Virus record (IMG/VR): IMGVR_UViG_3300017963_000207
Span: 48,881 to 112,880 of that record
Strand: one strand, 5' to 3'
Length of the DNA: 64,000 nucleotides
Origin: a virus
Shown here one piece after another: positions 24,114-57,800 of this stretch. The number at the start of each line of letters is the position of its first letter. The first letter of the stretch is position 1. Below the pieces are notes generated by a model, which searched no databases, had not been told where the DNA came from, and saw nothing but the letters and a program-made list of their open reading frames with translations. The position numbers were made by a program, and so were the translations under genes.

Positions 24114-24824
24114 CTACTCGTCCTCCAGCCTACCGCTACCGCGCAGCAGCCTCACAAACACGTCCATCGGGAGCACCACCAGCTCCACATCGTCCTCCCC
24201 ACCGGGGGTCCGAAAGGTGAGTGCCAACGCCGGGGCTACCCCAGCACTCCTCGCCACGACCTCCTCAGCCCACTCCCGCTTTAGCCCGCGAGACCGGTGC
24301 CTGGTCTCCTCGCGGATAGCTGCGGCGCAGTCGCCCAGGCACCCCCCCGCAGCCAGCAGTACGCGCTCATACACATCCTGCGGGAGCACCACCAGCTCCA
24401 CATCCTGCTCCCCGACCTTGGCCAGGAAGCGAACCACTACGGCCGGCTGAACCCAACGCGCGCTAGCGCCCTCAACCACCTTCTCGACCCAGGCCCGCTT
24501 GAACCTGATCGACTGCGCCTCTGTCTCCTTCAGCTCAACCAAAAAGCCTGGGATGCTCACATCTCCGCGAGCTGTTGGGCCCTCTCCCACCAAGCGACGC
24601 TGCCCCGGCGCGAGGCTCACCTGCCGAAGAGACCACGGGCGTCCCCCCGAGGCGGGAAGGCGCCGCCCCCCCAAACGCGCTCCGAGCTCGTGCTCATTCT
24701 TGCGCGAGCGTCGCGTGCGAGCTGCCCGATCACCCCCCGGCCGAACCCATGCAGGCTCAGGACGACAGGGGGCCTCGGCCTCGTCGTCCAACCAAGCTGG
24801 AGAAGGCTTGCGGTGAGAACTCAC
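24114..24824 (-). CDS. PD-(D/E)XK nuclease, Holliday junction resolvase-like
   Basis: 236 residues. The segment from about residue 43 (NEHELGARLGGRRLPASGG) to GDVSIPGFLVELKETEAQS (about 88-106) fits an Hjc/resolvase-type PD-(D/E)XK core: Glu, then GD, then ExK, with a trailing Ser/Gln. The C-terminal half has two similar ~45-residue units (ELVVLPQDVYERVLLAAGG and ELVVLPMDVFVRLL), an internal duplication. It overlaps the recA stop by 4 bases, fitting a job in recombination. A restriction-like nuclease is an alternative. Confidence 0.6.
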   Translation of the reverse strand: MSSHRKPSPAWLDDEAEAPCRPEPAWVRPGGDRAARTRRSRKNEHELGARLGGRRLPASGGRPWSLRQVSLAPGQRRLVGEGPTARGDVSIPGFLVELKETEAQSIRFKRAWVEKVVEGASARWVQPAVVVRFLAKVGEQDVELVVLPQDVYERVLLAAGGCLGDCAAAIREETRHRSRGLKREWAEEVVARSAGVAPALALTFRTPGGEDDVELVVLPMDVFVRLLRGSGRLEDE

Positions 24825-28069: not shown

Positions 28070-28098
28070 CACTTAACAAGTAATTAGGGCATTGTCAA
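28070..28098 (-). promoter_or_regulatory. Promoter, TTGACA-17-TAAGTG, near-leaderless
   Basis: Minus-strand TTGACA (28093-28098) then AT, 17-base spacer, TAAGTG (28070-28075). Its predicted start falls 2-3 bases before ATG 28060 of the MerR-like gene. It overlaps the 3' end of the helicase gene upstream. Confidence 0.6.
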
Positions 28099-31000
28099 GT
28101 AACCCGTAGATAGAAGCGGTCGCGCTGCGCCGCCGCCCGACGGAAGGTTGCCACCAGGTCATCGCGTATATCGACCACGATCGGGTCCTTCTTACCCGCA
28201 CAGATACGCTGAATGCGTCCAGTAGGCTGCTCTACATCCCACATAGGAGTAGCCAATACAAGCGTGTCGAGAGGCGGGATATCAAGGCCCTCTGCAGCCA
28301 TCTGAACCGTAGCCAGAACCACCTGTGCCTGCGCAGCCTCCGCCCGCTCATCAGAGGTGCGACCCCCAACAAAATAGCCCACCGTCGGCGCCCGAGAGCC
28401 GTTGGAGCTCTTGGAGCAGGCGTTTAGCAACCCCCGATGAAGTAGCTCCAGGTGATTCAGACGTTCACTCAGCACCAACAGCTTACGCCCGGCAGCGGCC
28501 GCTGCCGCGATCTGTGCGACCACAATCCGATTGCGCGCGCGGTTGGTCGTGAGAAACTGAATAATGAGATGGCGCGGCGCCACACTCGGGTCAAAGCTCG
28601 GGGTAGAGAAGAGCTGGAAGTCTGTCCACACCCGCTTGACCTTCACCTTCAAGAGCTTCTCCTTTGAGGCGTAGAGCACCTTCCCTATGCTGTAACGAAA
28701 GACGTTGTCCGCCCCATCTTTCCGACGAGGTGTGGCTGAGTTGTGAACCAGCACACCATCAGCAACAAAGGACGGGTGACCGCCCATCTCCAGGTCATAG
28801 ACAAAGTCCGGCGGCGCGCGATCGTAGTTAACTGACCTCACTACTCCTTCCAGATACGACAGCTCCCCCTCACAGAACCGACGTCTGTGGCCTCTATGTC
28901 CTGCATCATCCGATAGCTCAGAGTGCCCCGACCAGTAAACCTGAAAGGACCTTCGTCTGCCCATAATCTGCCGACTATCGACAACACCGCCCAAGCTGGG
29001 CTCGTGACCACTTACTCCCCCGACCACTCCCAAAGACCTAAGCAAGCTAAGCAACGAACGAACCAAAGAAGGCGATGTGGTCCTGACGCGATGCCCTACC
29101 CTCCCGCTCTCGCGCTCTGAACGACAACCGTCAGAGTCCAACAGACCTTGTAACAGCTCCCTCCGATAGCACTCCTCCCAGCCCACTACCCAAGCAGCAG
29201 GGATACTCTTTTCCCCACAACCTACAGACCCAAAAACATCTCGAAAGATAGCAGCCACCACAGCACTGGAACACCGCACCTCTGCCGAAGCCCCAGGCGT
29301 CTCCCTCTGCCGGGGGTGCCACACCACCCCCGGCAGGCCACGCAGGCGCGTCAGGATCTCCGGCACTCGGCTTAGCTCTACCGCAAAGTTTACGCGGTTA
29401 CCGCTCACCCACCCGTCGCCGAGCCAAAAGCCTAGTATGTAGGCCCAACAACGTAGGTCTATGTACGGGTCTGTAGAAACACCTCTCGCCCCTTCTGTGT
29501 ACACCGCCGAGGGCTCTGGCAACCCCTCCCTGCAAGCAAGGTACACCTCCGCCGGAAGATAATGACCACGGCTCCCTTGATTGCGGTAATTCCACCAAGA
29601 CTTCGGAGACGCCCCGACATCCCTACGCGCAACACCATCTAAAGAGACAGCCACCTTCACAGATCGAAGACCGTAACGAACAGCCACAGCGGCTACGTCC
29701 ACACGCCCTTGCGAACATCTCGACCCCCAAGCCGCCCCATCATCCATGGGCAAGCGGTCCCCCCTCTCGACCTCCTTGGCTCTGCACACAGATAAAGAAG
29801 CCAAAGGCTTTCGATTCCGATTAACACGCACAAATCCGCCAGGCTCCAGACGAAACAAAGAGTGGTCGTCAGTAACCCGCAGATCGCGCCCAGAAACACG
29901 AAGACACCTGAGAGGCGCAGAGACTGAATGGCGGATGAGGCTCTTTACAGGCTTCCAACAAAAACCGTACCCCTCCCAGCCTCGCGACTCTACACCATCA
30001 AAACGGACAACGTCGTAAGTACCCTCTCTCCTCACTGGGAGATACTCAACAGCCTCATCAAACGCTGCCTCAATAGGGCCAACCCACCCCAAACCGAAGA
30101 CCCCTCCACGAAGCTCAACAACGGACTGGGGTCCGACGGAGAGACCGATGCGCCACCGCGCGGGGAAGCACGCAGGAACAGGCGCCCAGGTCTCCGCGCC
30201 TATGCGGTGGCAGTTGTGTACCACCACCCCCTCAGCGACAAAGTTGTGCAGGTCCTCCACCGTGAGATCGTAAACAAGCTCAGGCGTCTCAACGTCGGCG
30301 GTCTCCAGCACCCGAGCCAGCGTCAAGCGGTTCTCCATAGGGGCAAGTGAGACAACATCGCAGTGAATCACATAATCGTTGCCAGGCTCCAGCTCCCCAG
30401 CGGTCCTGTCCCCACTTGGCGTAAACACCACGTGATTGGAGGTGCACACCAGCGTCCCGCACTCGTGCCTCACCCACATCATGGAGCTCCGGGGCTTGTG
30501 CACCCACTTTCGCGTCACCGGCTTAACTGCGAAGCGACCACCTACACGATCGTACGCCAGCACATAGACGGGGTCTGGGTCCGCCACCACCTCCTCGATA
30601 GGACGATAACCACGCGAGGTCAGGATCCGCGCGTAACCTGGCAGCGACTCATCTACCATGAGTGCCCCCGGCCACTGATAGAGCGCTGGAGGATATTCCC
30701 GCTGCGCTAGGGAGTGCACCATCCCAACGGCCAGGTGCTTACCCTCAAAGTCGCACACATCCTGCTGCACACGCCCAACAGCCACCCCTGGGAGAAAGTA
30801 CCGGATGCGCTCCAGCCACTGCTCCACCAGAAACTCCTTGTGTACCACCACGAGGATGGGAACAGCCAGCTGCGAAGCAAGCGATAAGGCGGATACCGTC
30901 TTACCAAAGCCCGGCGCCGCCCTCAATATACCGCCGGTACAGTAGGGGTCCGACAAAGCCTTAAGAAGTGCCCCTTGCGCCCTTCGCTGCTCTGGCCGCA

Positions 31001-31277
31001 GCTCCCCCTCAAAGCGGATAGGAGATGGTAAGGAGGCCCCCATCGTGTAGGCTAGCTCCACCTTGTGGTAGGGCTTAAGAAAGGAGAGGAAGTACTCACG
31101 AGGAACACCAATGTGCGTCTTGGTCTCCTCCCACATGCGGATAGTTCCAGGCGCCTCCCCTGGGTGGTCTCCCACCTTCTGGGGCTGAATCGTCAGCTGA
31201 CGAGAGATGACCTGCCGCTGTGTGGTGGTCATCCCCGCCAGCCGTATCCAAGCAAGCCTGTCTAGTCGAACATCCAC
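28095..31277 (-). CDS. Superfamily 2 DNA helicase with two inteins
   Basis: 1060-residue precursor, 448 residues after splicing. Motif I is RAAPGFGKT (about 119-127), motif Ia LVVVHKEFL, motif II DECH (split by intein A), motif III SAT (split by intein B), and motif VI region QPTGRIQRICAGK. It resembles the UvsW/XPB/RAD25-like group that unwinds branched DNA in phage recombination and replication restart. The N-terminal ~90 residues are a small extra domain. Both inteins cut residues needed for ATP hydrolysis, so splicing must precede activity. Confidence 0.9.
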   Translation of the reverse strand: MDVRLDRLAWIRLAGMTTTQRQVISRQLTIQPQKVGDHPGEAPGTIRMWEETKTHIGVPREYFLSFLKPYHKVELAYTMGASLPSPIRFEGELRPEQRRAQGALLKALSDPYCTGGILRAAPGFGKTVSALSLASQLAVPILVVVHKEFLVEQWLERIRYFLPGVAVGRVQQDVCDFEGKHLAVGMVHSLAQREYPPALYQWPGALMVDESLPGYARILTSRGYRPIEEVVADPDPVYVLAYDRVGGRFAVKPVTRKWVHKPRSSMMWVRHECGTLVCTSNHVVFTPSGDRTAGELEPGNDYVIHCDVVSLAPMENRLTLARVLETADVETPELVYDLTVEDLHNFVAEGVVVHNCHRIGAETWAPVPACFPARWRIGLSVGPQSVVELRGGVFGLGWVGPIEAAFDEAVEYLPVRREGTYDVVRFDGVESRGWEGYGFCWKPVKSLIRHSVSAPLRCLRVSGRDLRVTDDHSLFRLEPGGFVRVNRNRKPLASLSVCRAKEVERGDRLPMDDGAAWGSRCSQGRVDVAAVAVRYGLRSVKVAVSLDGVARRDVGASPKSWWNYRNQGSRGHYLPAEVYLACREGLPEPSAVYTEGARGVSTDPYIDLRCWAYILGFWLGDGWVSGNRVNFAVELSRVPEILTRLRGLPGVVWHPRQRETPGASAEVRCSSAVVAAIFRDVFGSVGCGEKSIPAAWVVGWEECYRRELLQGLLDSDGCRSERESGRVGHRVRTTSPSLVRSLLSLLRSLGVVGGVSGHEPSLGGVVDSRQIMGRRRSFQVYWSGHSELSDDAGHRGHRRRFCEGELSYLEGVVRSVNYDRAPPDFVYDLEMGGHPSFVADGVLVHNSATPRRKDGADNVFRYSIGKVLYASKEKLLKVKVKRVWTDFQLFSTPSFDPSVAPRHLIIQFLTTNRARNRIVVAQIAAAAAAGRKLLVLSERLNHLELLHRGLLNACSKSSNGSRAPTVGYFVGGRTSDERAEAAQAQVVLATVQMAAEGLDIPPLDTLVLATPMWDVEQPTGRIQRICAGKKDPIVVDIRDDLVATFRRAAAQRDRFYLRVT
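28740..30140 (-). mobile_element. Intein B of helicase (467 aa, Ser1)
   Basis: Residues 380-846, placed just before SATPRRKDG (motif III). It starts with Ser (SVGPQSVVELRGG), carries LAGLIDADG-type motifs ILGFWLGDGWV and LLQGLLDSDG, ends VADGVLVHN then Ser. The boundary at Ser380 follows from restoring the usual GLSATP helicase sequence. Confidence 0.9.
30213..30647 (-). mobile_element. Intein A of helicase (145 aa mini-intein, Ser1)
   Basis: Residues 211-355, between DE and CH of motif II. Starts with Ser (SLPGYARILTSRGYRPI), block B CTSNHVVFT, ends NFVAEGVVVHN then Cys. No endonuclease domain: the only intein here without one in or out of frame. Confidence 0.93.
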
Positions 31278-33851: not shown

Positions 33852-36460
33852 TAGAACGGTACCCCCTCGTCAGGCGCGTCCCCTGAATCCCCACCGTGCG
33901 TCGCCGAGAAGGGGTCCTCGTCGTCATCCCCCCCACCAGGCTGCACCGGACCACCAACACGTGGGAGCTCAGAGAAGTTGCACCGGTCTATGTCCCAATT
34001 GACCTCAAACGCCTCGCCCTCCCCCTCACGCATCTTGAGGGCCTTCATCAGCATCCGGCGATCCTTCTTCATGTCGTCCGTCTGGATAAGGGCATAGGCT
34101 AGATCAGCGTTCCACGATGACACGTCGGTCAGCGCTATGCGGTCCGCTCTAAAGGTGCTGGCCGTATTGCTTTTCACCTCGCGGTTGAACTGCATGGTTA
34201 CCAGGTTCGGGACACTGGTCCGCTTGCAAATCCTCTTGAGCTCATCAAAAGCGTTGGCGGCTCGCTCCGTCCGGTTCTTGCCCTCCGTCTTTAGCAGGTA
34301 AGCCCCATCCATCACCGCCAGGTCAGGCTCATACTCACGGATGGCGTCCTCGTAGGTGTCGACACGGAAGTCAAAGTCACCCCCAATGACCTTCAAACGC
34401 TCCGAGCGCTCCACCTCCTGGACGTACGCAGCAATCCCCGCCCGAACGCGCTTCTCAGTGAAGGCATCCAGGCGCCCAAGACGCAGCTCCCGGTAGCTAA
34501 CCTTGAAGTGAAGCGCAGCAAAGCGCATCGCTATCCGCAGCTTGGATATCTCCGTCGAGCCGAACAGCACCTTGTGCCCGTTCTCCCAAGCGTGGTGAGC
34601 TATCAGCGCTGTGCACCAGGTATTGTGCACGATCACGTCGTTGGCAACAAAGCAGCTCGTGGGCTCAACCGTGAAGTCGTATATCTTCTGCTCCCCAACG
34701 TCCTCAACGGCCTCCACCGTGTCCCAAAACACCTCGCTGTCCCAGAGCCAGCTGTACTCCTCGGTGCAGCCAAACTCGTCGCAGTAGACCCGCAAGGCAT
34801 CGAGCGATACTGAGTAGAGGTCTCCATGCTTCTTGAACAGCTGCCGAGGCGAGAAAGTGCCTCGACCGAGCCGCTCGCAGATACGCTGCAGCTTGTCACC
34901 GTTAGGGTTGTGGTAGCCCCGCGCCCCAGCCTCACCCTTGATGCGCAACATCAGCTCCTCAGACACTCGGGGGAAGCCTACATTCGCGTTGCGGGGCCGC
35001 TTTAGAGACTCCTCCAGCCGCCTACCCTTCTCCCCCCACAGCTGGACATGCTTCGCGAAAGCTGGCAGGCACTGCGAGTAAACACGGAGCCGCCAGGCAT
35101 CAAACTTCTTGCCGTCGCAGGTAGCCTGCTTGTACCTAACGCTCGACTGCACACCAAAACGCAGCAACAGATGCTGAATCCCTCGGACGAGCTTCTCAGA
35201 GGCTAGGGTGATGCCTGGAGCCCCACTGTCCACGTACCCATCGCACATCCAGAAGACTGCGAGGAAGCGCGCCAACTGCTCCTGCGGGAGGCGGTAGACC
35301 TCCTCGGGAATAACCTTCTCTTTGCTCAACAAACCAGACACCCGAAGACGCCGCAACAATCTGTCCACCGGATTGCTCTGCGCCCCCGCGGCACGTGTAA
35401 AGCGCCAATCCCGCCCACGCGCGCTGGGCTCCAAAGTAATCCCGAAAGCCTCGGCAGCTGTCCGCCCCAACGCAACGATCGAGGGGTCATCCTTCGTAAA
35501 AGTCGGACTACCGTGAGCCGCTAAAGAACCATCAGCCAGCATAATCGCTAAGACGTCAACCTCATGCGTCTGCATACCGACAGGTTCCAAAGGCTCCGGT
35601 ATCCAAGAGGGCAAACCTACTGTGCTCCCTGCTACCAATTCGTCCGCACGTTGCCACCCATCAGGCGTCAAAAAGGGGTGCTCGGGCGTGACTGTAATGC
35701 TGCGACCTGTCCCCAGCTCAAAGCGCAAACACCGCTTGGTCCCTGTATCGTGCTTTGCCGTAATGCGCTGCACATGGACCCCGTCCTCCTTGCTCCAGCT
35801 TAGAACGTTGACTAGATCCCCTCGCTTGTAAACGTCCTCAACGGTGTGGGGTGCACCAGTAGCCGGGTCGTGTGTAAGTGTTTGATAATACACGCATTTT
35901 CCTGTGCCGGTCTTCGCAGCAAAAAGGATAAGGTCCTCGGGCCAAAAACCGTAGGTCTCCTCATTGATCGTAGGCCAAGGCGTTAGGATGCCACGCTCCC
36001 CCGCTTTCATCCGATCGTAGTGCTCCATCACCTTCGGCCAAAGCTTGGGGATGCTCTCCGCCCGAGAGTGGGAAACCTGGTGCTCTCGGCGGATACCCCG
36101 CAGAAGGCTCTCCAGCGCGTCTAGAGCTTCGTAGGGCCGTGCGTCGTCAAGATGCTTTGCCGTCTCCAACAGGCTGTTGCGTAGGTCTATCTGCATCTTG
36201 CGCGCCCAGACCTCCTTAACGAAGAACTCCGCGGGCTCATCCACATCCGGCAGCGCTAAGCTCAGCTTAGCCTCTACCACCTGACGCGACGGCGGCGAAC
36301 CATAGAGCTTCGCATGATCGTTGATAAGCTTGTAGGCCCCTGGGGCGTGCTCACCCATCAGCAGGTCAGGGCGCATAGCCGCCTCTCTAGCAACCTTGAG
36401 CCCCGCCCCGTCGCCCGCGAGAATCGCAGAGATAAGAGCTAAATCGAGATCGAGAGCCAC
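33851..36460 (-). CDS. dnaB: Replicative DNA helicase, DnaB type, with intein
   Basis: 869-residue precursor, 444 after splicing. N-terminal helical domain, linker, then RecA-like helicase domain: Walker A AAKTGTGK/TW interrupted by the intein right after the Lys, Walker B-like LAVMDGAYLL, a QFNRE motif and an acidic C-terminal tail ending GVPF. Hexameric DnaB unwinds DNA at the fork with primase and the loader encoded alongside. The split P-loop means the unspliced protein cannot bind ATP properly. Confidence 0.92.
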   Translation of the reverse strand: MALDLDLALISAILAGDGAGLKVAREAAMRPDLLMGEHAPGAYKLINDHAKLYGSPPSRQVVEAKLSLALPDVDEPAEFFVKEVWARKMQIDLRNSLLETAKHLDDARPYEALDALESLLRGIRREHQVSHSRAESIPKLWPKVMEHYDRMKAGERGILTPWPTINEETYGFWPEDLILFAAKTGTGKCVYYQTLTHDPATGAPHTVEDVYKRGDLVNVLSWSKEDGVHVQRITAKHDTGTKRCLRFELGTGRSITVTPEHPFLTPDGWQRADELVAGSTVGLPSWIPEPLEPVGMQTHEVDVLAIMLADGSLAAHGSPTFTKDDPSIVALGRTAAEAFGITLEPSARGRDWRFTRAAGAQSNPVDRLLRRLRVSGLLSKEKVIPEEVYRLPQEQLARFLAVFWMCDGYVDSGAPGITLASEKLVRGIQHLLLRFGVQSSVRYKQATCDGKKFDAWRLRVYSQCLPAFAKHVQLWGEKGRRLEESLKRPRNANVGFPRVSEELMLRIKGEAGARGYHNPNGDKLQRICERLGRGTFSPRQLFKKHGDLYSVSLDALRVYCDEFGCTEEYSWLWDSEVFWDTVEAVEDVGEQKIYDFTVEPTSCFVANDVIVHNTWCTALIAHHAWENGHKVLFGSTEISKLRIAMRFAALHFKVSYRELRLGRLDAFTEKRVRAGIAAYVQEVERSERLKVIGGDFDFRVDTYEDAIREYEPDLAVMDGAYLLKTEGKNRTERAANAFDELKRICKRTSVPNLVTMQFNREVKSNTASTFRADRIALTDVSSWNADLAYALIQTDDMKKDRRMLMKALKMREGEGEAFEVNWDIDRCNFSELPRVGGPVQPGGGDDDEDPFSATHGGDSGDAPDEGVPF
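34622..35896 (-). mobile_element. Intein of DnaB (425 aa)
   Basis: Residues 189-613, inside the P-loop (GTGK/T). Starts CVYYQTLTHDPATGA, block B VTPEHPFLT, LAGLIDADG-type motifs LAIMLADGSLA and FLAVFWMCDGYVD, ends VANDVIVHN then Thr. The P-loop position is a known intein site in DnaB and other ATPases. Confidence 0.95.
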
Positions 36461-40742: not shown

Positions 40743-42668
40743 CTACCTCCGGCGCAGGAACTGGATAAAGCTGGACGAGACCAGCTGGACGAGGTCGGAG
40801 CCTATGCGCTCAGCTCGAACTCGCCGCCAAAAGCGCTGCGGCCCAAACATATAGGACAGCTGAGACGGCTCTAGGTCAAAGCGCGTAGGGAAACCGGGCC
40901 CCATCCGAGACCCGAGGAGAATGCCAGTAACGCCGATCCCCTGAGCCCGTGCCTGCTGCACCTCTTTGCGAACAAAGCGCATTAGCTGAGGAGTGCCGAA
41001 CGTCTTCCCGTCACGCCGTCGATGGGTAGGGAACCCATCAGTGACTATGAAGATATGCTTGACCTCGGTTCCACAGCGCAGCTCCTTAACGGCCAGCCGT
41101 ATAGCAACGTGGAGCGGGGTACCACCCCCGGCCCCCTTGTCCCCCATCGAGAGCACAGCATCCTTGTGGGAATCATAGCGGGTGATGGTTATCTGGCCAG
41201 GCTCCTGAGAGGAGAAGCCCCAAACCAGACTCTCTACGAAGGGGAAGCGCAGCGCTCGGTTGAGGATGTTGTAGGCAGAGCGGCACTGAATCGTTTTGCT
41301 GTGACCCATAGAGCTGGAGCGGTCTAGAAGAAGGATGGACCGAAAGCCTTGCCCCCTAGCCTCCGAGCGAAAGCAAGGGACCGGCACACCTGTTACGTGG
41401 CGCTCCAGATAGGCGCCAACGTCCACCCTCGTCCCGCTCTCCTCTAGCGCCGAGGCACGTCGCCCCAGCACGCGGTAAAACTGGGCCCGCAGGCGCCGAA
41501 TGGTTCGGCGTTCGTCGGGGTACACGTTCACCGAACCTTCGCGATCGTGGTCAATGAAGGTGACCTTCGCCATGGCGTCCTTCTGTAGCCACGCATCGCG
41601 ACGAACAACCTGCTTCATCTCCTGCAGGACCTGTGCAATCAGGTCCTGCATGCGGTCCTCAGACCGCGCTAGCTCCGCGTCAAACACATCACCGTCACCA
41701 ACCGGAGCACACAGAGCTTTAGAGGCCAGAGCCTGCGACCGCGGAGATGTCCGAGACCGGACATAGCTCGACTCGCGCATCAGGCCCTCCAGGGCCTCCG
41801 GAGCGTCGCCGCTGTCTGCTAGAACTCTTGATAGGGCCTGCGCCCTCTCACGGCCAGAGACGGCCTGCGGGGCCTCGGGGTGCCACGGCTGCTGCTCCCC
41901 ACTTTCCGCGCTGGCGCTCTCGTCCTCCTTACCGTCTGATGATCCCTCCTCATTGTCCCCGTCTCCCCTCTGCGGACAGGAGGGAGGGGGCTCGCCGCGG
42001 GTCTCACGGATTATCTGATTCACCAGCTGCACGACCAGCCACTTGCTCACCATCAAGGTGGCAGTAAAGTCGCGACCACACACCTTTCGGAACGCCTCCA
42101 GTATGTATGGCTCGAAGCAGTCTAGGTCCCCAGGCGCCACGCCCTCTGGGTCCCCGCTCAGGCAGGTTACGTAGGAGAGCAGGCCCTCATGGGCCTCGGG
42201 CAATATCTCCGCGACAGCCTCACGATCGAGGTCTCTGATGATATCTCTGCTCCCGGCGTATAGCAGTCCCCACAGGGAGAGCACCCGGCGTCGCTCCAGC
42301 TGCGCGATGATATGTCCTAGCAGCTGGCGAACATCCTCCAAGGCAATGGGGACTCCCAGCTTTTCTCCTACCTTCTGCACCTTCTCGGTGTAGGTCTCCA
42401 CGAAGAGGCGGGCGGCTTGAGGGTCGCTCTTGAAAAGAATATGCGCTAACTGCAGCTCAACCAGCCGGTAAAAGCTGGAGTGGAAGAAGGGCGCTCTTAT
42501 CTCGTGGCCGTCCGTCCCCGGCACGTCGGCGTGGCGCAGCCACAGCTTGCGTTTGGTAATACCCGCAAACATGTCCACGGTCTTGTAGGCCACTGAGCGG
42601 GTGGTCTCATATGCTCGGAGAGCCTCCCGACGCTCTGGAGATAATTCGGCGGCAGCGTCCGGGGTCAT
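40743..42668 (-). CDS. VWA-domain protein, CobT-like
   Basis: 641 residues. A helical N-terminal region, an acidic low-complexity middle (about 225-265: GDGDNEEGSSDGKEDES), then a von Willebrand A domain: MIDAS motif LLDRSSSM near residue 446, GGGTPLHVAI (MIDAS Thr), and IVTDGF near 543. The layout (acidic linker before a C-terminal VWA) is that of CobT, partner of the CobS/MoxR AAA ATPase, encoded next door with a 4-base overlap. Such pairs act as metal-chelatase-like or remodelling chaperones; the client here is unknown. Confidence 0.8.
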   Translation of the reverse strand: MTPDAAAELSPERREALRAYETTRSVAYKTVDMFAGITKRKLWLRHADVPGTDGHEIRAPFFHSSFYRLVELQLAHILFKSDPQAARLFVETYTEKVQKVGEKLGVPIALEDVRQLLGHIIAQLERRRVLSLWGLLYAGSRDIIRDLDREAVAEILPEAHEGLLSYVTCLSGDPEGVAPGDLDCFEPYILEAFRKVCGRDFTATLMVSKWLVVQLVNQIIRETRGEPPPSCPQRGDGDNEEGSSDGKEDESASAESGEQQPWHPEAPQAVSGRERAQALSRVLADSGDAPEALEGLMRESSYVRSRTSPRSQALASKALCAPVGDGDVFDAELARSEDRMQDLIAQVLQEMKQVVRRDAWLQKDAMAKVTFIDHDREGSVNVYPDERRTIRRLRAQFYRVLGRRASALEESGTRVDVGAYLERHVTGVPVPCFRSEARGQGFRSILLLDRSSSMGHSKTIQCRSAYNILNRALRFPFVESLVWGFSSQEPGQITITRYDSHKDAVLSMGDKGAGGGTPLHVAIRLAVKELRCGTEVKHIFIVTDGFPTHRRRDGKTFGTPQLMRFVRKEVQQARAQGIGVTGILLGSRMGPGFPTRFDLEPSQLSYMFGPQRFWRRVRAERIGSDLVQLVSSSFIQFLRRR

Positions 42669-44713
42669 CTCTTCTTCCCGTTGAGGTCTACCTTGAATAT
42701 CGAGGTGATGCGCTCCCGGACCGTGGCTTTGTCTGTCCCCTCGAACTTACCGACGACGATGCGCAGCGCGCGGGTTAGGTCCAGAGCTGCAATATCCTCC
42801 AGAAGCTGCACGACATCACGAGGGCTGAGGGCATAGTCCAAGGAAGCCTGGCGAGTCTCGTGCGCGAGCGTCATAACCTGCTTGACCACCTCTTTTCGAA
42901 CGCCCCCGTTGAGCACAGCATCCAAGATCTTCTTCTCGCTGGTGGGATTGGGGTAGTCGACCGAGATAACCCTAAAACGAGACTTCAGATCCTCATTGAG
43001 CGCGTACACGCCGCCGTATACCGCCGTGTTCATTGTCCCGGTAACCCACAGCTCCTTACCGGGCTGCAGCTTAAACACCTTCTGCGCCTCGGGCACCTCC
43101 ACCCGGCAACGCCAATCTGCTACCGCGTTAAGGATCTTCTGGCTCTGGGGTGAAAGCGAGTTATGCGTACCAAGCCCGTTGGCAAAGTATGTATGAGTCC
43201 CCGTGAGACCTATCTCTCGTAAGGGTGTTGGGGTCCTGTTGACTACCACTCTTTGTACAGTTACCCATCGAGGAACGTCCTCACCGCCCGACGTATTAGG
43301 TCTGGGCTTTTCAGATCCTCTTCCGATAGTCTCAACACTGTATAGCCCATGCTGGTGTAGGCTGCCGTCTCTGCCTCGCGCTGCTCTTTCGGGTGCCAGT
43401 AAGCCCCATCTACCAGCAGTACCTTCTTTCCCCTGGCAATGAAGTCGGGATTGAGGTGCCTCCCATCGGGGGTCGTCAACCATCTGCTGCCGTCGCCGAC
43501 ATAGTGAACCGGAAGACCTTCTAGGATGCTCATAGCCTTCCGCTCCAGTGCTGTGGGAAGCTCCGCATTCCACCCCGCATGTACAAACTGTATCTTGGCC
43601 TCGGGGTGCGCCTTCAGGTACGCCTTCCGCTTCGCCGACATATTCTGCCTGTGTGCGGGGTCGGACCATATTCTCTGAGCGCGTTCCGAGGCCAAGGCGC
43701 GACCTTTGGGACTCCGCCAAAACGCTGCGGTGGCTTGGCCACCTCGTGCTGCAGCCTCGCGGAACTCGGGGGACCGACAAACTGCCAAACGTTTGGCCCG
43801 CCTCTCCTCGTCGGCCCACTCTTTCTTCATCTGTCGCCTTTTGGTAGCAGCCATCTTTGCCCGCGTGGTTGGGTCCTCGTGCGGGCGCAAATTTCTCAGG
43901 AAGGCTGACATGCCCTCGCGGTACTCTTTGTCCTTCCACCTTTCGCGCATAGCCCTGGAGCGTTTTGCGCGAGCCTCCGGCGTCCTCGCCTTTGCTTGGA
44001 CGTCCGGGCGACGTCCCGGATTGTCTCCGTGCGCCATACGTTCGTGAGCTCTTAAGGCCCGCAGGTCCCTCTTCACGCAGCCGCAAGTTTTGCAGGTGTA
44101 AGATTCGGTCGCCTTCGCGGATGTCTTCGGCATAGGACCAACCTCGTGCGGTCCAAAAAAGGTGGTTACCGCTAGCAGTTATCCTACGCTCACCACAATC
44201 TAGTGTAAAGGAGGTGTTAGCCCATTCATCTCGGACCTCTACCACCGTCTCGATGCCTTGTTGACCAGAGGGTCCGAAGCTCACCACAGCGTCTCCCACC
44301 TGGACGCGTTCTATAGGCACTTGGAGACCCGAAGGCAGCATTACGTTGGAGGATGGGTGTATGCAATTGATCTCCTCTAGGCAGAGGATACAGCGGCCAA
44401 CCTCATTGGCCACCTCGAAGGCGTTGGTTATGGGCCCTAGAACAAAAGGGGTCGAGCCCCCTCGGATGATGTGCATCCCCAGCAGATGAGAGCGCCGCAC
44501 ATCCTCTGAGCAGTCAAAGGTGATGATCGGGCTCCGTACCTTGTTAGCGTAGTGCTGGATGGAGAGTGTTTTCCCTACCCCCTTCGGACCACACACAATT
44601 GCGGGTGCCCGAAAGGCTAGCCCATCATACAGAGGGAGCAGGTCCAGGGCGTCGATGTAGGTAACCTGCTTCGGAGCGAAGCTGTCTGCGGGCAAACTTA
44701 GAATATCGCTCAT
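42665..44713 (-). CDS. MoxR/CobS-type AAA+ ATPase with intein
   Basis: 682-residue precursor, 280 after splicing. Walker A VCGPKGVGKTLS (about 40-51), Walker B LCLEEIN (110-116) immediately followed by the intein, then SLSPQSQKIL, sensor 1 VTGTMN and the sensor 2 region. The split point lies right after the Walker B glutamates. With the VWA protein it forms a MoxR-VWA pair that remodels or loads a partner complex. The intein holds a homing endonuclease gene in the +1 frame. Confidence 0.85.
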   Translation of the reverse strand: MSDILSLPADSFAPKQVTYIDALDLLPLYDGLAFRAPAIVCGPKGVGKTLSIQHYANKVRSPIITFDCSEDVRRSHLLGMHIIRGGSTPFVLGPITNAFEVANEVGRCILCLEEINCIHPSSNVMLPSGLQVPIERVQVGDAVVSFGPSGQQGIETVVEVRDEWANTSFTLDCGERRITASGNHLFWTARGWSYAEDIREGDRILHLQNLRLREEGPAGLKSSRTYGARRQSGTSPGRPSKGEDAGGSRKTLQGYARKVEGQRVPRGHVSLPEKFAPARGPNHAGKDGCYQKATDEERVGRRGEAGQTFGSLSVPRVPRGCSTRWPSHRSVLAESQRSRLGLGTRSENMVRPRTQAEYVGEAEGVPEGAPRGQDTVCTCGVECGASHSTGAEGYEHPRRSSGSLCRRRQQMVDDPRWEAPQSRLHCQGKEGTAGRWGLLAPERAARGRDGSLHQHGLYSVETIGRGSEKPRPNTSGGEDVPRWVTVQRVVVNRTPTPLREIGLTGTHTYFANGLGTHNSLSPQSQKILNAVADWRCRVEVPEAQKVFKLQPGKELWVTGTMNTAVYGGVYALNEDLKSRFRVISVDYPNPTSEKKILDAVLNGGVRKEVVKQVMTLAHETRQASLDYALSPRDVVQLLEDIAALDLTRALRIVVGKFEGTDKATVRERITSIFKVDLNGKKR
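43160..44365 (-). mobile_element. Intein of the MoxR-type ATPase (402 aa) with out-of-frame endonuclease gene
   Basis: Residues 117-518. Starts CIHPSSNVMLPSGLQV, block B ASGNHLFWT, ends THTYFANGLGTHN then Ser. Between about residue 210 and 480 the in-frame translation is R/G/S/Q/E-rich and featureless because the same DNA codes an endonuclease in the +1 frame. The splicing parts total about 135 residues. Confidence 0.9.
43261..44133 (-). CDS. Vsr-like (EDxHD-type) homing endonuclease nested out of frame in an intein
   Basis: 290 residues. A zinc-finger-like N-terminus (TCKTCG ... HERMAH), then NUMOD-like DNA-binding repeats with many K/R and RAKRSRAMRERWKD, AKMAATKRRQM, SAKRKAYLKAHPE, then a Vsr/EDxHD-type nuclease: ALERKAMSIL (Glu), YVGDGS, HLNPDF (Asp), VLLVDGAYWH, and MGYTVLRLSEEDL. 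It starts inside the real N-terminal splicing segment (GAGG 9 bases before ATG 44133) and ends inside the C-terminal one. This nuclease family is known between fractured split inteins; here the intein frame is unbroken. Confidence 0.85.
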   Translation of the reverse strand: MPKTSAKATESYTCKTCGCVKRDLRALRAHERMAHGDNPGRRPDVQAKARTPEARAKRSRAMRERWKDKEYREGMSAFLRNLRPHEDPTTRAKMAATKRRQMKKEWADEERRAKRLAVCRSPEFREAAARGGQATAAFWRSPKGRALASERAQRIWSDPAHRQNMSAKRKAYLKAHPEAKIQFVHAGWNAELPTALERKAMSILEGLPVHYVGDGSRWLTTPDGRHLNPDFIARGKKVLLVDGAYWHPKEQREAETAAYTSMGYTVLRLSEEDLKSPDLIRRAVRTFLDG

Positions 44714-47133: not shown

Positions 47134-47514
47134 ATGGATACTCTTGTCGAACTCTGGGAAAAGCACAGCTTCTGGTTGATCCCTGTAGGCTGGGCGCTTC
47201 TCTCGGGCGCGCTCAACCTCGCGTTGCGCAAGCGCACAGCGGAGGAGTGGGTCGAATATGCAGAGCAGCACCCGCGCCGGGCAGCTATCATCCGACTCAT
47301 TCGCGCTCTGGGGTTTGATCCCGCTAAAGCTATCAACGCTGTTCAGCACCTGGTAAATGGGAAAGCTGTAGCGACCCGACGAATGCTGCCGGAGCCTGCT
47401 GCTAAAGCTCTAGAGGCGGCAGAGATCCTAGCGACCGCTAAGGACGAGGACAAGGCCAACGAGGCCAAGAAGGACGAGAAGGAGAAGCCATGCGAAAAGC
47501 CGCAACCACCCTAA
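47134..47514 (+). CDS. Membrane protein, possible holin-like
   Basis: 126 residues with one clear transmembrane segment at about 13-31 (FWLIPVGWALLSGALNLAL), then a helical charged cytoplasmic part ending in a very K/E-rich tail. First gene of the only rightward block, preceded by GGAGGT. One TM, small size and a following lipoprotein are compatible with a lysis cassette, but no family is recognised. Confidence 0.6.
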   Translation: MDTLVELWEKHSFWLIPVGWALLSGALNLALRKRTAEEWVEYAEQHPRRAAIIRLIRALGFDPAKAINAVQHLVNGKAVATRRMLPEPAAKALEAAEILATAKDEDKANEAKKDEKEKPCEKPQPP

Positions 47515-47861
47515 TCCTAGCCCTGGCAGCCCTGGTGCTAACCGGCTGTCCCCAGTTTAAGCCGTGGGCCCGAACAGCCCTCGAAGCAGCCCGACACGCC
47601 TGCGCTGCCTACGCGGAGCAAACGGGCCTGTCCTTCAAGGACGTGTGCGACACCGAGGAGAAGCTACGTCCGTTTATCGATTCGATCCTAGCAGCTCAAG
47701 CAGCAGCCGCGGCAAAGGGGGCGGCCGGAGCCTGCAAGTGCCCAAAGTGTGAGGAGGCCCCCAAGCCCGCTGCCCCCGCACCGAAGCCGCCTCCCCCCAC
47801 GCCCTCCGCAAAGCCGGAGGCCAAACCCATCCCCAAGCCTGAGCCAGCACCAGGAGGCTGA
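47490..47861 (+). CDS. Lipoprotein, possible outer spanin
   Basis: 123 residues with a signal peptide and lipobox (LVLTGC, Cys20), so it should be lipid-anchored. Two further Cys pairs (CKCPKC) precede a Pro/Ala/Lys-rich C-terminal tail. Small Pro-rich lipoproteins overlapping a membrane gene resemble outer spanins of phages infecting diderm hosts; it overlaps the previous gene by 25 bases. Spanin identity is an inference. Confidence 0.65.
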   Translation: MRKAATTLILALAALVLTGCPQFKPWARTALEAARHACAAYAEQTGLSFKDVCDTEEKLRPFIDSILAAQAAAAAKGAAGACKCPKCEEAPKPAAPAPKPPPPTPSAKPEAKPIPKPEPAPGG

Positions 47862-47862
47862 G

Positions 47863-50800
47863 ATGACGGAGAAAGGCACAGGCTACATCCCATCGCCAGA
47901 GGACGAGCGGGACTACCCGCTGATAGGCCCAGGCGAGAACGCCCTCTTCGGGGCGCTGAACACAACGGTCCCCACCGAGCATCTAGCAATGCTACCGTTG
48001 ATCGACTTCATCCGTGATCAAGGCGGCACCAACTCGTGCTTTCCTGCGGGCACTCGCGTGCTCCTGGAAGGCTTTACAGAGCGACCTATCGAACAGATTG
48101 CTCCAGGAAACCGTGTGCGGACGCACACAGGCCGAAGCGGTGCCGTCACAAAGGTGTCTGAGAGACCCTACGAGGGGCTGCTGTATTCGATCAAAGTAGG
48201 AGGCTGGATATACCCCCTAGAGGCTACTCCCGAGCACCCCGTAGCCGTCATCGCCAACGTGTCCGCCAGAGCAAAGCACGGAGACTTCGAGCCTGGTGAG
48301 CTAACGTGGCGCCGGTTTGACGCGATACGTCCAGGAGATCGTGTAGTCATGCCTGCAGACACCCGAGAGTTCCCCGAGGACTATCGGTCTGCGTGGCACG
48401 TGCTGCGCGTAGCGGACTATCTGGAAGGGGAGTACTGGGAGGAAGATGGCGCTGTTCGAGCGGCCATGGGAAGACGGGGGAGTGAGATACCTGCGGAGCT
48501 GGGGCTCACCCCCGATATCGGCAGGCTTCTCGGGCTGTTCCTAGCAGAGGGCAGCTTTCTCAAACCCAGCGGCACTAAACAGGGTGTGGCGTTCACCTTT
48601 GCGCGGCACGAAGCGCTCCTCCACACCTTCGTCTTGGAGGCCATGAGGACACACTTCGACCTGGAGGGCCAGAAGGAGGAGACGGAGCAGAAGCCCAACG
48701 TCACAACGTTGCTATTCTACAGCTCAACTGTAGCGCAGCTGTTCTACGCTCTGTGCGGAGAAGGGGCGCTACAGAAGCGCGTGCCCGACGTGTTTTTTGA
48801 GACAGGGCGCGACGTGAAGCTCGCACTCATCCGAGGGTGGTTTCAAGGAGATGGGTCTCAAGACCCCGTTCGTCTCCGCAGAAAGAAGGACGGCACTGTG
48901 CGCAAAGCTGCGGCCGTTCAAGGAGTCACAAGCTCTGAGGAGCTCCACCGTGGGCTATACCGCTTAGCCTCTCTCTGTAACATCAAGCTCAGTACGCAGC
49001 AGAGAAAGGTAGCGGAGCATCAAAACGCTGCCGGCCGCGAGCTGAACCTTTACGGGGACAACATCCTAAAGGTGTTCCCCGATGCAGCACCGCGCCTGGA
49101 AGCCGCTGGGATAAAGCTATCGGGACGGACCCGCTACCGAAAGCACGCCTTGGGATATCTGTGCCGCGTAGAGGAGGTTTCTATGCGTGAGGCCCCCGCA
49201 GACACTAAGGTCTACAACTTGGAAGTCGAGGGGGATCACTCGTACGTTGCCGAGGGCATCGCCGTCCACAACTGCGTCTGGCAATCCATCCAGCAGCAGC
49301 ACTACATCGCACAGGGGGTACACGGGGTGCAGCAACGTCTACCCCTGAGCGTGATGTTCGGCTACTACCACACGCGCCTTCGCGGGGGCACGCAGAGGTT
49401 TGACAATGGCTGCTTCCCCAGGCTGGCCTGGCAGGTGGCGGAGAAGATCGGATTCTGTATCGAGGACCTGTGGCCCTTCAAGGAGCCCGAGATAAACCGA
49501 CCGCCGAGTCTAGATGCCACCTCCGGGGCCATAGACCAGCGGTGGGTGCACGGCTACTACCACATCCTCGGACGCCCACGAGAGGAGGAGGTCCGACAGG
49601 CCCTCTCAAACAACCACCCTGTGGTATTCGGGACCGTCGTCGACAACGATTTCAAGCGGTACAAGGGCTCTAACCTTAGCACCGAGCCTATGAAGCCTCC
49701 GACGGGCCACTCCGGACGCCATATGATGTGCGCAGTTGCGTACGATCAAGACGGTCTGTGGGTGATCAACTCGTGGGGCTGTTACGACGATAAGACGGAG
49801 ATTCTAACCGCCGCTGGGTGGAAGTCTTTTGCTGATGTCGTGGTGGGTGAGCCCGTCGCAACGCTTAATAGCCACGGGGAGCTGGAGTACCAGAATACGA
49901 CTGACGTTCAACGCTACATCTACGACGGAGAGTTGTGGTCTTACCAGTCCCAAGGCGTAGACCTTGTTGTGACGCCAAACCACAACATGCTCATAGGACG
50001 CCGTTGTCGCGAAGGCGGTAAGCGCGTCCCCAAGTGGGAGCGCGTTCCGGCTGATCGCATCAACACCAAACACTTCTTGATGAAGAAAACGGCTGCCTGG
50101 TCAGGCGAAGAGCCTCCTTACATTGAGGTCGGTCCCCACAGGATACCAACGGAGCTTTGGGTCGAGTTCCTCGGCTACTTCTTGTCCGAAGGTCATGCCC
50201 GAGAGAACGTGGTCCAACGGCCGGAGCGTGTGGCGCTTAACGGTACGACAGGTCGCGAGAAGCGGTACAGCGCGTGCAGCGAAACTCAGTACCTGGTGGG
50301 TATCCATCAAACCAAGTCTGAAGGTGTCTTCAAGATGGGCGCCTGTCTACGTCGCATGCCTGCCGCCTTCACCCGCATAACAGGGGGTTGGCAGGCAACA
50401 TCTAGCCCACTGTGCGAGCATCTTCTCCCGCTCGGAAAAGCGCATCAGAAGTACATTCCTCCCTACGTCAAAAGGCTCTCTCCTCGGCTTCTACGAGTGT
50501 TCCTGAAGGCCGCTTGTCTCGGCGACGGCTCCCCTGTAGGCCGCAACGGCAGCGTCTACTACACCTCGTCCAAGCGGCTTGCTGACGATATACAGGAGGT
50601 TGCACTAAAGGCCGGGATGTGTGCAGATATACGCGAGGATGATCGCCGCGGTCGTACTAATGCGCGGGGGACCACTCGCTATGTGAACTACCAGGTGGCA
50701 ATCAAACCCGTGAGGGGAGAAACCAAACCCAAAGGAGGCTTCACGCCAACAAAGATCCCCTACAAAGGTTTCGTGCGCTGCGTCACAGTACCGAACGGTC

Positions 50801-50973
50801 TGGTCTATGTTCGACGCAATGGTAAGGCGGTCTGGTCGGGCAACTCCGACTGGGGCTGCCCGGACCCATCAGGGTTCTATCGATCGGGGTTCTTTCATAT
50901 GTCCTGGGAATGGGTAAACTGGTCAAGTGCCACTGATTGGTGGGCCGTCCAATACCCAAAGATGTTCGTTTAG
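47863..50973 (+). CDS. Papain-like (C1) cysteine protease with two inteins
   Basis: 1036-residue precursor, 269 after splicing, from ATG 47863 with AGGAGG upstream. Spliced, it has a C1 protease layout: DQGGTNSCVWQS (active-site Cys), GHSGRHMMCAVAYD (active-site His) and VINSWGSDWG (active-site Asn). Intein 1 ends exactly before the catalytic Cys, which is its +1 residue; intein 2 splits NSWG/SDWG beside the catalytic Asn. No signal peptide or TM is seen. Its place after a membrane protein and a lipoprotein fits a role in prohead processing, lysis or tail function; which is unknown. Unspliced protein should be an inactive zymogen. Confidence 0.85.
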   Translation: MTEKGTGYIPSPEDERDYPLIGPGENALFGALNTTVPTEHLAMLPLIDFIRDQGGTNSCFPAGTRVLLEGFTERPIEQIAPGNRVRTHTGRSGAVTKVSERPYEGLLYSIKVGGWIYPLEATPEHPVAVIANVSARAKHGDFEPGELTWRRFDAIRPGDRVVMPADTREFPEDYRSAWHVLRVADYLEGEYWEEDGAVRAAMGRRGSEIPAELGLTPDIGRLLGLFLAEGSFLKPSGTKQGVAFTFARHEALLHTFVLEAMRTHFDLEGQKEETEQKPNVTTLLFYSSTVAQLFYALCGEGALQKRVPDVFFETGRDVKLALIRGWFQGDGSQDPVRLRRKKDGTVRKAAAVQGVTSSEELHRGLYRLASLCNIKLSTQQRKVAEHQNAAGRELNLYGDNILKVFPDAAPRLEAAGIKLSGRTRYRKHALGYLCRVEEVSMREAPADTKVYNLEVEGDHSYVAEGIAVHNCVWQSIQQQHYIAQGVHGVQQRLPLSVMFGYYHTRLRGGTQRFDNGCFPRLAWQVAEKIGFCIEDLWPFKEPEINRPPSLDATSGAIDQRWVHGYYHILGRPREEEVRQALSNNHPVVFGTVVDNDFKRYKGSNLSTEPMKPPTGHSGRHMMCAVAYDQDGLWVINSWGCYDDKTEILTAAGWKSFADVVVGEPVATLNSHGELEYQNTTDVQRYIYDGELWSYQSQGVDLVVTPNHNMLIGRRCREGGKRVPKWERVPADRINTKHFLMKKTAAWSGEEPPYIEVGPHRIPTELWVEFLGYFLSEGHARENVVQRPERVALNGTTGREKRYSACSETQYLVGIHQTKSEGVFKMGACLRRMPAAFTRITGGWQATSSPLCEHLLPLGKAHQKYIPPYVKRLSPRLLRVFLKAACLGDGSPVGRNGSVYYTSSKRLADDIQEVALKAGMCADIREDDRRGRTNARGTTRYVNYQVAIKPVRGETKPKGGFTPTKIPYKGFVRCVTVPNGLVYVRRNGKAVWSGNSDWGCPDPSGFYRSGFFHMSWEWVNWSSATDWWAVQYPKMFV
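48037..49272 (+). mobile_element. Intein 1 of the C1 protease (412 aa)
   Basis: Residues 59-470. Starts CFPAGTRVLLEGFTERP, block B ATPEHPVAV, LAGLIDADG-type motifs LLGLFLAEGSF (Glu in place of the first Asp) and LIRGWFQGDGS, ends VAEGIAVHN followed by the protease catalytic Cys. Confidence 0.95.
49780..50844 (+). mobile_element. Intein 2 of the C1 protease (355 aa)
   Basis: Residues 640-994. Starts CYDDKTEILTAAGWKSF, block B VTPNHNMLI, LAGLIDADG-type motifs FLGYFLSEGHA and FLKAACLGDGS, ends GKAVWSGN then Ser. Confidence 0.93.
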
Positions 50974-54821: not shown

Positions 54822-57800
54822 CTATCTTATCGGACAGCTTCCGCTAGCGCACGCCTCCTCAATCTCCATCTCACCGCCGTTGACCAGCGGGTGGTCGTGG
54901 TCGATGTTGGAGGCTAGACGCTCAAAGGTCTCGCGGTCTATCGCCTCGTAGGGAGGCTGGGCGTAGCCATGAGCCTTGGGCAAGCAGGTGGTGCTCTTAA
55001 GCCGCGGCACAAACTCCCCGAGAAGAGCGGCAAGCTCCTCCTGCTCCGTATCGGCGTCAAAGGTGATAGTGGCACTGACGGCATTATCTGCCCAGTGCTC
55101 CTGTACGGCCGCCTGCCGTTCAAACTGCTGGCGCAGCGTCTGCGTCTGCGCAGTCACGCGCCCCGCGGGCGTCGACTCTGCGAAGCTGAACACGATCGTG
55201 TTCCCTGTCTGGTCGTACACATCAAGCTCGTGCGGAACGCCAGCCTCCATAAGGGCGCCGGCTAGGTTGTCCGCAATGTCCAAGCGAACACGGCGGATGT
55301 AGTGGCGCGCGAAGGGGGCGTGGATGCCTGGCGAGCTGCGGCTTAGCAACGATATGGTGCCGCTAGGCTTAACGGTGGTAACGGTCTTGGGGATAGCTGT
55401 GCCTAGCTCAATGGCGTAGCGCGTAGCCTCCCTGCGACATGCTCCGTACCACGCATCGAGCTGTGCTGGCGTCCAGTCGAAGTCGCAGATACCCCCCAGC
55501 CCTACTCCTAGCCTCATGTTCTGCTGCTGCACCGCGTTCGAGATGGGGTCCGTCAGCTTAGACAGTCGATTGCGAAAGCAGTAGCGCGTGACAAGGCGAA
55601 ACACCTCGTCAGCGTCAGTCGTATCGTGGAACCGTGAGGGGAACACCTCGGACAGGTTGCACGCCTCACGGTTGTACAGCGGCAGCTCGCCACAGTTGCC
55701 CGTCGCTACGCCGTCTGCAATGAAGGTCTCGTGCGTCGGCTGCTTGAGGCAGAACACCGGCTCGTGTCCGATAGGCTCGATGCTCACGATCTCCGTGGTG
55801 AACCGCTCCGCATAGGGTCCCCTCTTCCACGAGCTGCGCCAGCTTAGATAGCGATCCTCCATATCCTCTCGGAGGAATCCGAGCTGCTCATAGAAACGGA
55901 CCGCGTTGGCCTTTGAGACAACAAGGTCGTACTGCGTCTTGCACCAGTAGTCAGCAAGGTCCCCCTTACCATCAGGCAGACGGCGATAGCCTGCGTCTCG
56001 CCGCTTGTAGACGGACGACACGATGCCGAAGTTTAGGAGCAGCGTTTGAACATCACGGAGAAGAGCTGGGTTGCTCTGCGACAGACGGACGGAGAAGGTC
56101 TGCTTTTCGGCTGTCCAGTTTATCTGACCGTCTGTTGCGAAGAGGCCGCGGAGGTAGCCGCGGACGCACTTTTTGGTCCCGCGCCACACCACCTCTGGCA
56201 CAGAGCCCTTCTCACGATAGCCTACCTCAGCCAGGGCACGGCTTAGCAGCGAGCTGCAGATGTCCTCGTAGCGATCATACACTTGACAACCGAAGCGCTT
56301 CAGGTGCCCGTTACGCGGCGCTACGGAGGCCGCTACCTCGTGGCACCACGCTAGATATTGCCCGGACATCTTGCGCTTGGCGTCCCAGAAGAATAGATGA
56401 GCGCGCTTGCCGTCCTCGCTCCAACAGCCGTCACCTTCGAGCCACCCAATAACATGCCCGAGAGCCTCGCTGCCGTCCGCCCCCCACAAACCCTCGCCGG
56501 ATTGAAGTAGCAAGGTATCTCCAGGAGACAGGTCCTTAAGCTCCACAAAACCGTCGGGGGTCGGGAAGCGGTGATACGCCGTAGCCTTGATCTCGTTACC
56601 GTGCCGGGTCCGCATCCGGTAGACCTTCTCGGAGGCGCTTGTCTGGAAAGCCGCCTCCGCCTCGCGATGCACCGCTCCAGGCGAGACGTTCGTACGGTCC
56701 GTGCCGACACGAGCGTCGGTGGTGACCTGGAAAGCTTTGGCGTCCTTGAGATCTCGGATGGGTATTAAGCCCCATTGCGTGACGACACGGGTGTCGCCGG
56801 TGAGGCAGGGGTTGATCCCAACGATACCGGGGTCCGTCTCACGACATAGAGGGAGGTTGAACACACCAGGCTCGCCACCAGGCTCCGCAACGATGTCCGA
56901 AACGAGCTGGCGCCAGTCAAACCCCTCCAGCTCCTCCCTGCTTTGGAAGGCCAACGAGTTGTTGCTGGTGTGCCGATGCAAGGTTACCAGGCTCAGGTCC
57001 TTCTTCGCATTCCGGAAGGCTTGGTCGGTCGGGCTCCCCAAGGTCATCAAGGCGGAGTTGTGGACGAGCAAGCCGTTGCAGACAAACTCCTCAGCACCAG
57101 CTACCTCGATATCGTAGGTGTCCGCGGTCTCGTCCGTCTCGGTCACGTCCTGCACACAGATGGGCACGAGACCCTGAGCTTCTCCGCCCAGCTCTTCGTA
57201 AAGCGGGAAGACCATCTGTTTGCTGGTTGAATCCCACCGACCTTTCCAGAAGGTGGTGCTGTGTTCTGCGCGCACCATCTCGGAGGGGTAGCCGTAGTCA
57301 CACTGAGACACCGCGCTTACACGGACGCGCTTGGTCGCGTGGGGCTGCACTAGCTCCAGAAAGCGGGCCGTCGCGGTCCGTCCCACCAGATTGAGGTGGT
57401 ACATAGGCTGCCAAGACCCTCTAGCAGAGCGATTAAGCTTCAACCTCGTCGGTATTCCCAGGCTCGCGTAGACCGCCTGCACCTGCTCCAGGAAGGAGGG
57501 GTACACCGAGGCGCAGAGAACCACGGGGCGATTGCGTGCTGCACCGTCCGCATCTAGGAGGCCCGCCAGGTAGGAGGCTCGAACATGGGGGAGCCCCTCC
57601 AAGATGAACGACGGCACGTTAAGAGGCTGACGGGGTTTCTTCAGATTATCGTCCAGGTACCAGGCTAGCTGCTTGGACTGTGCTCGTATCCTTAGACAGT
57701 CGTCGAGGGCTCGTGGGGGGCGCTCGTTGAGCCGGACCCCGTAGCGCGTCAATTGCTCACGGCATCTGTTTGCTATTGCGTTGTGATAGCCGTCGTTAGC

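Follow-up and report, generated by a model that had tools for sequence, protein, structure and literature searches.

A predicted homing endonuclease in the +1 frame of a viral AAA+ ATPase intein, and the recurrence of this layout in other inteins

Can the linker of an unbroken intein also be the gene of a homing endonuclease, read in a different frame? This question is raised by a locus in the 64,000 nucleotides of viral DNA analysed here (IMG/VR record IMGVR_UViG_3300017963_000207, positions 48,881 to 112,880; this whole stretch is referred to as the window), where a CobS/MoxR-like AAA+ ATPase gene holds an intein and the intein in turn holds a second open reading frame (ORF) for a Vsr-like (EDxHD) nuclease. 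According to the initial annotation, this nuclease is read in +1 within an intein that is itself unbroken and takes the site usually occupied by an in-frame endonuclease domain; the frame, the position and a structural model resembling I-Bth0305I all agree with that description. Our analysis indicates that the locus is very probably a cis-splicing intein with a homing endonuclease in the +1 frame of its own linker, for which expression, splicing and homing are predicted.

The AAA+ intein and its open frame

The AAA+ gene (Pfam AAA_5, E 2.3e-10; PHROG 249, E 5.4e-17) is one uninterrupted frame, and the intein within it is a single open frame throughout, i.e. it is not split into two ORFs (Table 1). 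A search for relatives free of the endonuclease, as proposed in the initial annotation, returned 18 viral proteins without the insertion, with which the spliced AAA+ exteins align end to end; the empty site in these intein-less proteins lies just after Walker B, at LEEIN/SLSPQ (the slash marks the junction). A second carrier, L002, comes from the same metagenome and exhibits the same open intein and frame with a nuclease of 58% identity, whilst a further contig (L001) is identical to the window locus across 10.8 kb. The +1 residue is Ser in both carriers and mostly Gly or Ala in the empty relatives. At its C-terminal end the intein reads HTYFANGLGTHN before Ser+1, with GLGTHN/S in both the window and L002, and its block-B-like stretch is RRITASGNHLFW. 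In the structure model of the intein, residues 1–90 (the N domain) are folded and the linker has a predicted local distance difference test (pLDDT) value of about 25.

The nuclease ORF starts at intein residue 78 and stops at residue 368, between block B and the C-terminal blocks. Its product combines a C2H2-like zinc finger, repeats and a C-terminal Vsr-like nuclease; the W-x-x-x-E-Y-R-type repeats are also present in free-standing phage nucleases. An AlphaFold model of the nuclease (mean pLDDT 76) gave I-Bth0305I (3r3p) as its top PDB match in Foldseek (E 5.3e-4, probability 1.00), with a template modelling score of 0.66–0.68 for the catalytic fold, normalised by target; sequence searches with the nuclease were weak (3r3p E 0.27, DUF559 0.0036, Vsr 0.1). 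E197, D230 and H247 fall on Vsr-like active-site positions and are, by analogy with Vsr, the predicted catalytic E-D-H residues, with H247 invariant across relatives. The proposal that both ends of the gene overlap splicing blocks holds for the 5' end, which lies over the conserved AEDIREGDRIL, but not for the 3' end, which reaches no further than the opening residues of the C-terminal block.

Stop codons in the linker are avoided through synonymous codon choice in the nuclease. The intein frame contains no stop, as had been reported initially, and the linker is open in this frame for about 290 codons. The test by synonymous shuffling that the initial annotation had suggested was carried out by permuting synonymous codons within the nuclease and counting intein-frame stops over 20,000 trials: none was observed over the window nuclease against 8.4 expected (P<5e-5, zero never being reached by permutation), and the third frame carried 13 stops against 11.7 expected. 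With the nuclease in +1, an intein-frame stop requires a nuclease codon NNT followed by AA, AG or GA. Codons ending in T are absent from all 84 positions that precede a codon starting with AA, AG or GA, but make up 39 of 205 elsewhere (Fisher 4.7e-7); the corresponding counts at risky positions are 0/84 in the window and 0/92 in L002, and other long ORFs of the window carry 6–100 such stops. The intein frame of L002 provides a result that is independent of the window locus, with 0 stops against 10.8–11.7 expected. As controls, members of the same nuclease families that reside in DNA polymerase introns (Pf-WMP3, PhAPEC7, PS3) or are free-standing carry 17–72 stops in the corresponding frame, in agreement with expectation: the open frame thus tracks the intein and not the nuclease family.

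Comparison of the window and L002 also bears on which of the two products is conserved. Differences in the nuclease frame occur at a rate of 0.60 at third codon positions and of 0.35 and 0.30 at the others, and the linkers are 29% identical: 80/287 residues match, against 72.2 ± 6.3 under a null that keeps the nuclease synonymous (P 0.12). Selection of the linker sequence for a function of its own is therefore rejected, and the third-position divergence together with a linker identity at null level indicates that the nuclease is the conserved product. Judged from these two sequences, the linker is apparently a by-product of nuclease evolution, selected just for being stop-free.

Recurrence of the layout and the choice of the +1 frame

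A nested-ORF scan covered the virus of the window and that of L002. The first intein of the PolA gene encodes an HNH endonuclease in +1, and its host frame has 0 stops where 8.1 are expected; four viral relatives (51–53% identity) show an HNH nuclease likewise in +1 of PolA-like inteins, giving a set of five inteins, all in +1 (P<=0.0003). The TerL intein of the window's virus, just outside the window (L070:7179-8186; virus 47179-48186), holds a NUMOD3/TnsA-like PD-(D/E)XK nuclease in the +1 frame, and the homologous TerL intein in L013 holds a related nuclease (NUMOD3 E 7e-11, TnsA-like E 3e-10), so that this set comprises two inteins. L002's virus encodes a Vsr-like nuclease in +1 of an SNF2 helicase gene (L063:7853-8398; G001 47853-48398) with no recognisable intein blocks: this insertion fits the ShiLan type described below, i.e. 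an unspliced, out-of-frame nuclease. An HNH-like/zinc-finger ORF in the +2 frame of another intein (L122:3944-4498; L122/L123) was rejected, its openness being due to chance (0.7 stops expected, P 0.41).

The PolA gene deserves two further remarks. It carries a second intein at 7376-8623 (LAGLIDADG) and a third at 5945-6967 that ends in Gly-Asn, and Pfam Intein_splicing scores 77.9 on the entire ORF with its three inteins, the best stretch lying in intein 2. In Providencia phage PS3, a DNA polymerase intron (L133, about 2363-2492) holds a nuclease related to the HNH enzyme of the PolA intein. This intron splits the gene at TGRLSSSNPNL, which is 5–6 codons from the intein site GRYS/SRSPNLQ, such that one nuclease family is associated with two kinds of splicing element near one target.

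The family of the SNF2-helicase Vsr-like nuclease was surveyed in IMG/VR and GTDB genomes. All 79 distinct inteins that were found have the nuclease in +1, with no stop observed against 630 expected, and the His-Asn C-terminal block follows directly after the nuclease. The host proteins include helicases, terminases and DnaX-like proteins, and 13 of the loci lie on bacterial genome contigs, some of which are perhaps prophages; the DnaX-like (clamp loader) inteins with an overprinted Vsr-like nuclease are L225, L226, L227, L200, L201 and L205, some on bacterial contigs. Relatives of this nuclease also sit in +1 within complete inteins of DEAH helicases from cultured phages (Pseudomonas MR14, Corynebacterium phi673, Vibrio 1.088.O, 24/CP-T1 and 104E43.1): in the five helicase inteins examined P was 0.0014 or less, and the helicase is annotated but the nuclease is not. 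When the AAA nuclease itself was used as query, the genome scan found nothing, and tblastn of the AAA nuclease and AAA protein against cultured phages gave no match. Short DUF559 proteins and a single free-standing nuclease (L181) make up the 22 relatives in which no frame is overprinted; L181 had been considered as a fractured gene and was rejected as such. No closed-frame or fractured member occurs within the surveyed family.

In total, the layout is seen in about 88 distinct phage and bacterial inteins and with three nuclease superfamilies (Vsr-like, HNH and TnsA-like PD-(D/E)XK), and has at least three origins. Thus, of the suggestion that the locus represents either an intermediate or a distinct solution, the notion of a single oddity or a necessarily intermediate state is not upheld, and a recurrent layout is what remains. 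No relative was found with the nuclease in frame with the intein, which the initial annotation had named as a sign of an indel error, and the recurrence of the layout, both at 58% identity and at many other loci, leads us to reject a sequencing indel.

Why the +1 frame recurs is explained by the silent removability of stops, as calculation shows. Dynamic programming over all synonymous encodings always gave a minimum of 0 stops in the host frame of the +1 layout, because the change from NNT to NNC is always silent, whereas the same procedure for the other frame left 1–6 unavoidable stops for most overprinted nucleases. These unavoidable stops arise chiefly from Met followed by a codon that starts with A, a consequence of the genetic code. 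Silent mutations therefore suffice to fit a newly inserted nuclease in +1 to the host frame.

Table 1. Coordinates of the AAA+ locus and of other features in the window
Feature	Position	Strand	Remarks
Host gene, AAA+ ATPase (CobS/MoxR-like, AAA_5)	42665-44713	minus	682 codons including intein; one uninterrupted frame
Intein	43160-44365	minus	AAA+ residues 117-518; 402 residues, Cys1 to Asn402, then Ser+1
N-extein end, ILCLEEIN	44366-44389	minus	Walker B region, conserved insertion site; alignment with uninterrupted relatives
C-extein start, SLSPQSQKIL	43130-43159	minus	Ser+1 nucleophile; alignment with empty relatives
Intein block A, CIHPSSNVMLPSG	44327-44365	minus	Aligned in L002; Cys1 in window and L002
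Intein block B, RRITASGNHLFWTARGW	44138-44188	minus	Conserved in L002
Intein C-terminal blocks F and G, WVTVQRV...HTYFANGLGTHN	43160-43267	minus	Conserved in L002
Homing endonuclease ORF (predicted)	43261-44133	minus	290 residues, +1 frame; gene offset 580, mod 3 = 1
Dual-coding stretch	44093-44131	minus	Intein AEDIREGDRILHL over nuclease codons 1-14; A, EGD and L conserved in L002
Shine-Dalgarno-like GAGG	44142-44145	minus	8 nucleotides before nuclease ATG, within intein codons ARGW
PolA intein 1	8720-9553	minus	278 residues, C...FSHN/S
HNH endonuclease in +1 frame of PolA intein 1	8761/8764-9312	minus	About 183 residues; HNH_3 E 2.2e-12
LAGLIDADG intein genes and RecA insertion	24824-27133, 28098-31229, 33854-36373, 47863-50967, 54825-60002		

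The virus of the window is unusually rich in inteins: RNR, a ResIII helicase, a DnaB-like helicase and one gene without an assigned function hold conventional LAGLIDADG inteins, and RecA has a LAGLIDADG_2 insertion. Three tRNA genes are located at 1044-1790 on the minus strand.

Expression of the nuclease and competing explanations

If the AAA+ locus operates as a cis-splicing intein with an overprinted nuclease, ribosomes in the AAA frame would make an extein-intein-extein precursor, from which the Hint blocks, to judge by their intactness and by Ser+1, would excise the intein along with its featureless linker, about 280 residues long. From 44133, a further initiation event via the GAGG inside intein codons would yield a separate zinc-finger/EDxHD nuclease; this may then cut intein-less alleles at the intein site, with repair copying in the whole element, and selection on the host protein would keep the linker stop-free through synonymous codons of the nuclease. 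Several observations weigh against this reading. Block B exhibits SxNH in place of TxxH, with the His kept and Ser replacing Thr in both the window and L002, and Pfam Intein_splicing scores the AAA intein at 13.2 bits, under the cut-off of 35.8: the assignment as an intein hence rests on the blocks, the insertion site and the empty relatives. Furthermore, the C-terminal half of the intein model, for which two sequences served as input, is not confident, and L002 has no ATG at the homologous place, GTG 209 being its likeliest start.

One alternative is that the locus represents a transitional state toward a fractured gene, in which a split intein would have a free nuclease gene between its halves. 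This nuclease class is said to have been first described in that setting, by Dassa in 2009, and the overprinted layout may be the ancestor of fractured genes; on the other side stand the 79 distinct open-frame inteins of a family that holds no closed-frame or fractured member. The frequency of the layout argues for a stable solution, and we consider the transitional explanation unlikely.

A second alternative concerns the start of the nuclease, for which internal initiation is favoured from the sequence context. If ribosomes instead underwent programmed +1 frameshifting close to where the intein N domain ends, the product would be a fusion of N-extein, N-intein and nuclease in place of a free protein, which would likewise count against the reading given above. 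The nuclease frame is indeed open for about 15 codons upstream of the ATG, and L002, lacking the ATG, has AAGGAGG and then GTC CCC GCG near its frame transition. Against this, the window has an ATG with GAGG at 8 nucleotides, several helicase inteins have GAGGT about 8 nucleotides ahead of an ATG, placed within codons that specify the intein motif DEVL, and the anti-Shine-Dalgarno match at the first start codon of the 79 inteins is stronger than background (p 1e-5); for a preference of GAG over GAA at the DEV motif there are too few cases for a conclusion. Frameshifting thus appears rather improbable.

Considerably less credible is an RNA intron that carries a nuclease gene and in which the intein blocks are coincidental. 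Whilst some DNA polymerase introns of cultured phages do harbour related HNH nucleases, the AAA intein has Ser+1 and Hint blocks A, B, F and G, all of them conserved, and an intron has no need of a stop-free frame, in which intron-borne relatives carry 17–22 stops; Rfam gave no intron match in the window, although this is a weak test as Rfam missed annotated introns too. Finally, a chance open frame in a gene rich in guanine and cytosine, with the nuclease or the intein a relic, has next to no probability at the AAA locus: long chance ORFs do occur in these GC-rich genomes, and the L122 candidate is explained in this way, but the codon permutation refutes chance statistically here, and the layout is kept in L002 and recurs in 79 distinct inteins.

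Significance and comparison with known systems

Textbook inteins consist of a splicing domain and an in-frame endonuclease domain, or, as mini-inteins, lack the latter. Our broader proposal is that overprinted inteins form a class of mobile elements that is widespread, convergent and undescribed, in which at least three nuclease superfamilies would have entered linkers independently in the silently recodable +1 frame, with a start signal in conserved intein codons, and which may give rise to fractured genes and natural split inteins; we regard the case for it as evenly balanced. Should this class be real, a homing enzyme lies hidden in many inteins that are annotated as endonuclease-less, and intein mobility is undercounted, cultured phages included. 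Such a layout would decouple the nuclease from splicing whilst keeping one transcript, would provide a natural test bed for the evolution of overlapping genes, since one frame is constrained against stops alone, and would offer a route, open to testing, by which fractured genes and natural split inteins could arise.

The initial annotation knew of no described case; related out-of-frame HNH insertions have been published, albeit without an intein. These ShiLan-type insertions are hidden in phage methylases and have no splicing element (Arsenault et al. 2025, PMC11855218); the host ORF stays open and is translated through, the insertion is retained, and its frame is described as the third frame. 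The same authors state that overlapping frames are frequent, for which they refer to a preprint of theirs on non-canonical architecture in actinobacteriophage inteins (PMC11855218). The title of that preprint and the context in which it is cited (Gosselin et al. 2025, 10.1101/2025.01.02.630785) suggest that it may concern a related layout. What the ShiLan insertions share with the AAA intein is a homing endonuclease out of frame in an open host ORF; they differ in that here a full intein surrounds the nuclease, the frame is +1 and several nuclease classes are involved.

The other systems differ in how the nuclease relates to the host frame. I-Bth0305I, which is intron-encoded, shares the predicted catalytic fold and the E-D-H residues with the AAA-intein nuclease, but has no overlap with its host frame. 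Fractured genes, in which an EDxHD/Vsr-like nuclease gene reportedly lies between split, trans-splicing intein halves, share both the nuclease class and its place between the N and C halves of the intein, whereas the AAA intein keeps one unbroken frame, with the nuclease overprinted on it. In the canonical LAGLIDADG inteins of the same virus (PolA, RNR, helicases), the nuclease is likewise located between Hint blocks B and F; there, unlike in the AAA intein, it is an in-frame domain of the intein itself.
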